Source: Jaminaea rosea (Eukaryota; Basidiomycota; Exobasidiomycetes; Microstromatales). From it: a stretch of DNA of 64,000 nucleotides. Shown here piece by piece: positions 62,603-64,000 of the stretch. Within the stretch, counting starts at the first letter, position 1, and the number at the start of each line of letters is the position of its first letter. A program made the position numbers and the translations under genes. Location of the stretch: assembly GCF_003144245.1 (NCBI RefSeq), contig NW_020289975.1:2499496-2563495 (forward strand), given 5' to 3'. The notes below the pieces were generated by a model. That model saw only the letters and a list, made by a program, of their open reading frames with translations. It searched no databases and was not told the DNA's origin.

Positions 62603-63621
62603 CTACACGCTCATCTTCATCTCAATCTTCTTGTGCGGCTGGTACCCAATCACCTCAAAGTCCTCCGCCTTGAAACCATCCACATCTCCTACTTGCCTCT
62701 TGATCCCCAAAGTCGGGAAACTCCTAGGCGTCCTAGTCAGCTGCTCTTTGAGCCCATCGACGTGATCCTTGTACACATGCGCATCCCCCATGACCAGCGT
62801 CAACTCTCTCGCCTCGCAACCAGTAACGTGCGCGATCATGTGCGTGAGGAGGGCGTAGCTTGCGATGTTGAATGGGATGCCTAGCCCAAGGTCGCAGGAG
62901 CGTTGGTACATTTGGCAGGAGAGGCCGGGTTTGCCGCCCTCTTTCGTGGGCAGAGTCACGTAGAACTGAGCAAACATGTGACAGGGTGGAAGGGCCATCA
63001 GAGGGAGGTCTGGGTGCGAGGGTGAAGCCGTCGTTAGCGCGATGCTCTTCGCCACATTTCGCGCTGCGCTCACCCTTCGGATTCCAAGCACTCATCACCA
63101 TTCTCCTGTCCGTCGGATTCTTCTTGATCGTCTCGACGATCTCCTTCAACTGGTCCACCCCCTTGCCAGCGTAATCAGCATCCGCATCTTCGTAGGCAGC
63201 ACCAAAATGGCGCCACTGGAAGCCGTACACTGGTCCGAGGTCGCCCTCCCGTCGATGCTGCAGTCCCCTCGAGTCTAGGAAGCTACGCGATCCATTGCCA
63301 TCCCAGATGTGGACATCTCGCTCCTCGAGCTTCTTCGCGTCTGTACAGCCGCCGACGAACCAGAGGAGCTCTTCAACTACGCCTCGCCAAAAGACGCGCT
63401 TCGTCGTGAGCAGGGGAAGTCGGTTGTTGGTGAGATCGAACTTGAATGGCTGAGGAGCAAAGAGGGCGAGAGTGCCTGTGCCTGTTCTGTCTGCTCGCGG
63501 CTGGCCGTGATTGATGACGCGAGAGATGAGGGAAAGGTACTGTTGTTCTTCATGAGGTGTTGAGGCGGTAGGCTGGCCGGAGGGGTTGGAGGGGGAGACG
63601 GATACAGTGGGGGACGGGCCA
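62603..63621 (-). CDS. TMP1: Thymidylate synthase (C-terminal part of a probable fusion; own start codon not found)
   Basis: Exons 63621-63074 and 63009-62603 with a 64-nt intron (GTGAGC...CCCAG), encoding about 318 aa. Splicing gives SAWNPKDLPLMALPPCHMF, with the catalytic Cys codon at 62981-62983. Other signatures are RADRTGTGT, VVEELLWFVGG, DLGPVYGFQWRHFG, CDLGLGIPFNIASYALL and GDAHVYKDHVDGLKEQL. The enzyme methylates dUMP to dTMP with methylene-tetrahydrofolate. No ATG exists in its frame upstream of the core, back to the in-frame TGA at 63705. The acceptor at 63622-63624 (TTGGACAG) follows a pyrimidine tract. It pairs in frame with the GTGAGT donor at 63708 at the end of the phosphatase gene. 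I list it separately, but the best-supported transcript model is a joined protein. A weaker alternative is a short exon from the ATG at 63673. Confidence 0.9.
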
Positions 63622-63708
63622 CTGTCCAAGGGAGGAACAGCAGGGACGATTGGGTTGTGAGCAAACCGAGCATTGCTTGTCAATAGGCATAACGCCGCGT
63701 CCACTCAC
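63622..63708 (-). other. 87-nt intron joining phosphatase and thymidylate synthase reading frames
   Basis: The donor is AAAGAC|GTGAGT and the acceptor TTGGACAG|TGG, with CTCAC and TTGAC branch-like sites and a pyrimidine tract. Length is 29 codons exactly. If retained, the frame meets TGA within the donor and the phosphatase ends in SSKT; if spliced, ACT-GGC-CCG continues into thymidylate synthase. Confidence 0.6.
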
Positions 63709-64000
63709 GTCTTTGAGGAGAACATGCCTGCGATCGTTGGCTCATCGAAGTTGTGGTGCGCGTACGATAGAATGCACACGCCTCCTGCGTCCATCTCAAA
63801 GAGACGGCCGTTGGTCAGAGGCAGGCCGAGCCAGCGGGTGATGAAGCAGCTGCGGGTGATGATGACGGGCGAAAGATCAGCGACACAATGCTTACCAGTC
63901 AAGAGCCTTGCTCTCTCGCCCGCCAGTCCTCACCGGCTGTGATGCCCATGGCTGACAATCATGACATCGCCCCCCTTCTGCATCACCGCTTGATCATGCG
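63705..64000 (-). CDS. Histidine-phosphatase (Shb17/phosphoglycerate-mutase-like) C-terminus, partial at window edge
   Basis: Exons from beyond 64000 to 63934, and 63849-63709, with an 84-nt intron (GTGAGG...CGCAG). The frame reads VMQKGGDVMIVSHGHHSR then CFITRWLGLPLTNGRLF and ILSYAHHNFDEPTIAGMF. VSHGHxSR carries the second catalytic His of the superfamily, and RWLGLPL...LSYAHHNFDEP is typical of fungal Shb17-like sugar phosphatases. Shb17 hydrolyses sedoheptulose-1,7-bisphosphate to feed ribose synthesis. The N-terminal RHG motif lies outside the window. If the last intron is not spliced, TGA at 63705-63707 ends the protein after SSKT; if spliced, it continues into thymidylate synthase. Exact substrate is inferred. 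Confidence 0.75.

Follow-up and report, generated by a model that had tools for sequence, protein, structure and literature searches.

A predicted single-chain fusion of a Shb17-type histidine phosphatase and thymidylate synthase in Jaminaea rosea and related Ustilaginomycotina

Does the minus-strand locus at the right-hand end of the window (the whole stretch of 64,000 nucleotides that was analyzed) encode two enzymes or one? A histidine phosphatase frame ends there at a TGA at 63707-63705, and a thymidylate synthase (TS) frame, open from 63704, runs back to that same TGA without a Met in the translated stretch leading into the TS domain. The TGA itself sits within a GTGAGT splice donor (63708-63703). 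An earlier note, made from the letters alone, had pointed to the missing ATG and had proposed a phosphatase-TS fusion gene that could be switched by intron retention; frame translation agrees with its reading of the TS frame. We consider it very probable that this is one gene encoding one bifunctional polypeptide, in which a flexible linker of some 20 residues would connect a predicted N-terminal Shb17-type histidine phosphatase to a complete C-terminal TS.

The spliced gene model consists of four exons on the minus strand and yields one protein of 571 residues, with a predicted mass near 64 kDa. The phosphatase start was read from the genome 553 bases beyond the window edge, at coordinate 64553 (C1:2564048), so that only the 3' end of exon 1 (63934-64000) lies within the window; exon 1 encodes the N-terminal part of the phosphatase, which contains the RHGETEW motif and, within SHGHHS, the second catalytic His. 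Intron 1 (63850-63933; 84 nt, GTGAGG...GCAG) is followed by exon 2 (63709-63849), which encodes the end of the phosphatase, RCFITRWLGLP...DAGGVCILSYAHHNFDEPTIAGMFSSKT. The junction intron (63622-63708; 87 nt, GTGAGT...GACAG) contains the in-frame TGA. Exon 3 (63074-63621) encodes the linker GPSPTVSVSPSNPSGQPTAST and the N-terminal half of TS, and it is separated by intron 3 (63010-63073; 64 nt, GTGAGC...CCAG, with a CTAAC motif) from exon 4 (62603-63009), which encodes the C-terminal half of TS with the PPCH active-site Cys and ends at a TAG stop codon. The exon end at intron 1 coincides exactly with the end of the open reading frames (ORFs) of relatives P0122, P0124, and P0125, the start of P0236 apparently falls inside an intron matching intron 1, and the exon end at intron 3 is overrun at the same place by the ORFs of several relatives.

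Joining the donor at 63708 to the acceptor ...GGACAG, which ends at 63622, produces ...SSKTGPSP..., with the Thr codon assembled in phase from AC and T, just as the earlier note had described. Counted from the 3' end of the junction intron, a branch-like CTCAC lies at 37 nt and a TTGAC at 59 nt, and the splice signals are of the same kind as those of introns 1 and 3. When donors up to 60 nt ahead of the stop codon or up to 30 nt beyond it were paired with acceptors down to 63540 at a spacing of 40 to 200 nt, five GT-AG joins kept the frame into TS, and a GTGAG-type donor occurred only in the 63708/63622 join. Because the peptide created by this join matches that of fused relatives, the join is far beyond chance, and a fused single chain made via junction splicing is predicted for the window species. 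An introner-like, repeated-element origin of the junction intron was considered and rejected, as a genome search with the 87-nt sequence gave no match besides the intron itself.

The intron length of 87 nt is divisible by 3, so phosphatase and TS lie in one frame even in the unspliced transcript, and beyond the TGA no further stop interrupts the unspliced stretch. Readthrough of the TGA with the intron kept would thus yield a fused protein longer by 28 or 29 residues. We regard this route as extremely unlikely, because none of the fused relatives that were aligned or listed has such an insertion and because splicing, for which the GTGAGT and CAG signals are present, restores the FSSKTGP motif found in them.

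The joining of His_Phos_1 and Thymidylat_synt in related fungi, for which the earlier note had suggested a search, was found in a search with the joined protein: both domains are present in 46 of the 120 matches listed (6007 found), from Microstromatales to smuts and Malassezia. Of these two-domain records, 19 carry a species name, and 18 of the 19 cover at least 96% of the query at 51 to 77% identity; the record of Malassezia pachydermatis covers 78% of the query. The species-named fused proteins come from Parajaminaea, Sympodiomycopsis, Tilletiopsis, Exobasidium, Tilletiaria, Violaceomyces, Pseudozyma, Testicularia, Kalmanozyma, Sporisorium, Melanopsichium, Tilletia, Thecaphora, and Malassezia (six). 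The protein of Parajaminaea phylloscopi, another member of the Microstromatales, is 77% identical over 566 columns, and its MFSSKTGPSP is identical across the splice site. The same listing contains unfused TS of about 320 residues in Cryptococcus, Kwoniella, Schizophyllum, and other basidiomycetes; matches below 0.55 of the query (about 314 amino acids) are invisible to this search, and any short unfused TS of the group would therefore be missed by it. With a shorter query, no unfused TS under an Ustilaginomycotina name was found among the 120 matches listed of 1048. No Moniliellomycetes protein was among the matches listed.

The junction between the two domains is crossed by 55 of the 343 proteins compared. 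The junction pattern had caught 57, from which P0052 and P0239 were removed by eye as unfused; P0242, which crosses only the phosphatase end, was not counted. The motif [IM]FS[SA][KR][TV]GP is present in 34 of the 55, and Malassezia and similar rows have an FSPK-like stretch where others have FSSKTGP. In 23 of the 55, the stretch from the last phosphatase strand to the TS core is free of Met, and without an unseen exon a separate ATG start of TS is therefore impossible in these proteins. As gene models can be wrongly merged, we also looked for unspliced-looking ORFs, defined as those that run past the NP(K/A)G exon end into the expected intron 3. Eight of them (P0015, P0016, P0039, P0041, P0096, P0107, P0236, and P0237) cross the junction unbroken; P0016 was assigned to this class by its end, and its match in the junction table lies in the linker.

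These observations bear on the alternative that there are two separate genes, with the phosphatase ending at the TGA and TS translated from a transcript of its own that begins at an internal ATG or in an unseen 5' exon. Met249 (MFSSKTG) precedes the splice and could start a TS with a short leader, and Ceraceosorus bombacis has a phosphatase-only record, P0126. The latter, however, is 192 amino acids long and ends within the domain without reaching the second catalytic His; it is probably a partial gene model and possibly a real split of the fusion. Against two genes stand the lack of any intergenic space (phosphatase coding sequence, the 87-nt intron, and the linker are contiguous), the TS frame of the window species, which itself has no ATG, the Met-free junctions, and the continuous unspliced-looking ORFs. 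Two separate genes are accordingly very unlikely in our estimation.

Four other proteins of 533 to 547 amino acids in the comparison (P0052, P0054, P0061, and P0083) look like tandem TS, in which an N-terminal half containing HRIAQFYV and lacking the PPCH cysteine is joined to a complete TS. This half is possibly a degenerate copy kept for regulation.

The unspliced-looking ORFs also bear on the age of the junction intron. P0236 apparently begins in intron 1, crosses the junction, and ends in intron 3, so that of the three introns of the window gene it seems to have the outer two and to lack the middle one. In P0125 and P0021, the ORFs break at intron 1 in the same way and the junction is open. 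As far as intron positions in relatives can be read from unspliced-looking ORFs rather than from genomic DNA, the junction intron appears to be absent from the close relatives P0236, P0021, P0015, and P0016; some contigs of relatives may be of pre-mRNA or mixed origin. Most simply, the junction intron is a later gain in the window lineage. The unspliced-looking ORFs of P0123 and P0242 hint at introns of their own within or close to the linker, at positions unlike that in the window, and these seem to point to ordinary intron turnover.

The switch that the earlier note had proposed, in which regulated retention yields either the joined enzyme or, with the intron kept, a phosphatase ending in SSKT, receives no support from these comparisons. 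Its mechanical part stands: the intron is 3n long, and the retained form would stop at once, near the natural end of stand-alone phosphatases. However, a switch is hardly a property of the family if close relatives apparently have no junction intron, and the junction intron has splice signals like those of introns 1 and 3. Moreover, a stop codon ahead of downstream exons is expected to invite nonsense-mediated decay, and the retained TGA would be such a stop. We therefore give regulated retention very little credence. A related reading holds that the junction intron is the relic of an old intergenic spacer and the TGA the former phosphatase stop, kept here and lost elsewhere. The fusion would then have begun as splicing across the former intergenic region, and retention would still free the phosphatase. 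If so, ribose supply and dTMP synthesis would be tied by default and uncoupled on demand; we consider this origin quite improbable. Under the preferred reading of one gene and one chain, the 87-nt intron would be spliced constitutively, being removed in essentially all functional mRNA.

Maximum-likelihood trees, whose roots were placed for drawing only, were built for each half. In the phosphatase tree (34 fused, 28 stand-alone, and 8 broad-specificity rows), the 34 fused rows form one clade (96/89) beside stand-alone basidiomycete phosphatases; in the TS tree (30 fused and 27 unfused rows), the 30 fused rows likewise form one clade (100/98). The position of Malassezia differs between the two trees. 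This pattern fits one fusion event in an ancestor of the sampled Ustilaginomycotina, with the genes inherited vertically. Together with the two-domain relatives and the unspliced-looking ORFs that cross the junction, the single-clade trees lend strong support to the phosphatase-TS fusion suggested by the earlier note.

The protein matches two Pfam families only, His_Phos_1 at residues 12-241 (whole-protein E value, 1e-33) and Thymidylat_synt at residues 280-571 (whole-protein E value, 8.7e-109). The TS half covers positions 1 to 266 of the 266-position PF00303 (ThyA) profile, and its nearest solved relative is the TS of Cryptococcus neoformans (2aaz; E value, 6.4e-143). In the fusion protein, C446, R299, R473, and N484 occupy what we take to be the positions of the catalytic Cys and the substrate-binding Arg and Asn of TS. 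Conservation was tabulated in 36 chosen rows, comprising 35 relatives and the window protein: R299 is present in 36, C446 in 32, R473 in 32, and N484 in 33, and the exceptions are all among P0015, P0016, P0039, and P0041, whose ORFs end before these positions or lose frame there. Among the phosphatase residues, R16, H17, R81, E114, and H202, presumably representing the RHG motif, the second Arg, the acid Glu, and the second His, are each present in 36 of 36 rows. Both halves of the fusion appear to be kept by selection, because the catalytic positions are conserved in phosphatase and TS alike.

The assignment of the phosphatase half to the Shb17 type, also put forward in the earlier note, is supported by its best solved relatives, which are the YKR043C chains 3lg2, 3f3k, and 3ll4 (E values, 2.3e-33 to 4.4e-32). 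The next solved relative is 2a6p, described as "possible phosphoglycerate mutase GPM2" (E value, 2.8e-21), and yeast phosphoglycerate mutase 1 follows at about 5e-4. By sequence comparison, the phosphatase half is closer to YKR043C than to phosphoglycerate mutases, and it is probably a sedoheptulose-1,7-bisphosphatase. A deviation was found in the REWDYGxYEG loop (residues 113-120, in the part of exon 1 outside the window, at about 2712-2689 of L003), where Q113, R116, and A120 of the window species replace the R, D, and Y of most rows; these replacements may tune or weaken the phosphatase. Variants at these sites also occur in P0025 (Q and N at the first two), P0015 (A at the third), and P0001 and P0007 (C at the third). 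The loop of the close relative P0122, QEWRYGSAEG, resembles that of the window species.

The predicted structure of the Parajaminaea protein (P0001) has a mean pLDDT of 87.3 and a pTM of 0.82, with residues 263-277 mostly below 50, which suggests two folded domains joined by a flexible linker. The structure alignment included 36 of the 46 both-domain proteins. All of the best 50 of 857 Foldseek rows obtained with the whole model are TS or DHFR-TS, and the proposed fold of the phosphatase half is thus drawn from sequence and model confidence.

In the window genome, TS was found only in the fusion gene, as two exon matches. There are 11 His_Phos_1 matches, and only the fused locus is Shb17-like: with P0129 as the query, it scored an E value of 2e-55, against 2e-8 for the next locus. 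A separate Shb17 paralogue was sought and rejected, as the fused locus was far ahead for each of six stand-alone queries in a search that scores best candidates only. A DHFR fusion was likewise rejected, as no DHFR domain (PF00186) is present in the chain and DHFR is encoded separately at C1:117768-118352. A classical FBPase is also found at a separate locus. Rfam and tRNA scans of the window gave no matches.

An open frame with a CBF/Mak21-family domain (59615-62479, plus strand), presumably Noc4-like, converges on the fusion gene, with about 124 bases separating the two coding ends. On the other side, outside the window, a divergent frame encoding an acidic protein without a Pfam match lies at 3240-4472 of L003 on the plus strand (about window 64745-65977), and an amidase frame lies beyond. 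The first ATG of the acidic-protein frame is about 250 bases from the phosphatase ATG, and the two may share a promoter region.

What might the fusion do? According to the available part of one report, Shb17 is a bisphosphatase that acts on sedoheptulose-1,7-bisphosphate and thereby replenishes the pentose phosphate pathway (PMC8151747). In the fusion protein, the phosphatase would still cleave sedoheptulose-1,7-bisphosphate and so feed ribose-5-phosphate, and TS would dimerize as usual, each dimer carrying two phosphatase domains. Transketolase, PRPP, and pyrimidine steps lie between the phosphatase and TS reactions, and direct channelling is unlikely because the two reactions are so many steps apart. 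The benefit would rather be fixed coexpression of two DNA precursor enzymes. Such coexpression, or the persistence of a neutral fusion owing to the essential role of TS, seems more plausible to us than channelling.

Thymidylate synthase is both essential and a drug target. In a subphylum to which both the smuts and the Malassezia skin yeasts belong, this enzyme appears to be produced fused to a pentose pathway phosphatase, which makes the fusion a candidate shared character of the Ustilaginomycotina and has consequences for the expression and assay of their TS. It also provides a natural setting for testing whether a fixed ratio benefits ribose supply and dTMP synthesis. Gene callers can split the fusion gene and leave TS without a start codon.

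The earlier note had known of no such pairing. No publication on a phosphatase-TS pairing was among the matches listed in a limited collection of papers (titles and abstract starts), and nothing on it is contained in the accessible part of PMC1261261; the novelty does not extend to sequence databases, as the architecture is already visible, and apparently undiscussed, in public protein records.

Among known systems, the bifunctional DHFR-TS of protists and plants has the same general plan of an N-terminal enzyme linked to a C-terminal TS, and the window protein differs from it in having no DHFR domain. A fungal example is Hal3-TS of Schizosaccharomyces pombe (PMC6695811), for which Molero 2013 is reportedly the original paper. 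Like the protein described here, it joins an unrelated metabolic enzyme to the N terminus of a functional TS; its partner, however, is a decarboxylase domain of the CoA pathway (PPCDC), and it belongs to another lineage. The PPCDC flavoprotein domain is not one of the two Pfam families of the window protein. Yeast Shb17/YKR043C shares with the phosphatase half the catalytic motifs and the DAGG..LSYAHHN.DEP stretch, and it is a stand-alone enzyme (219 to 257 amino acids in the listed fungal relatives), in contrast to the fused form predicted here. The closest counterparts are the His_Phos_1 plus Thymidylat_synt records of other Ustilaginomycotina, such as Parajaminaea phylloscopi, Sporisorium reilianum, and Malassezia furfur, which contain the same domains in the same order; compared with these records, the intron at the domain boundary is a feature of the window species.
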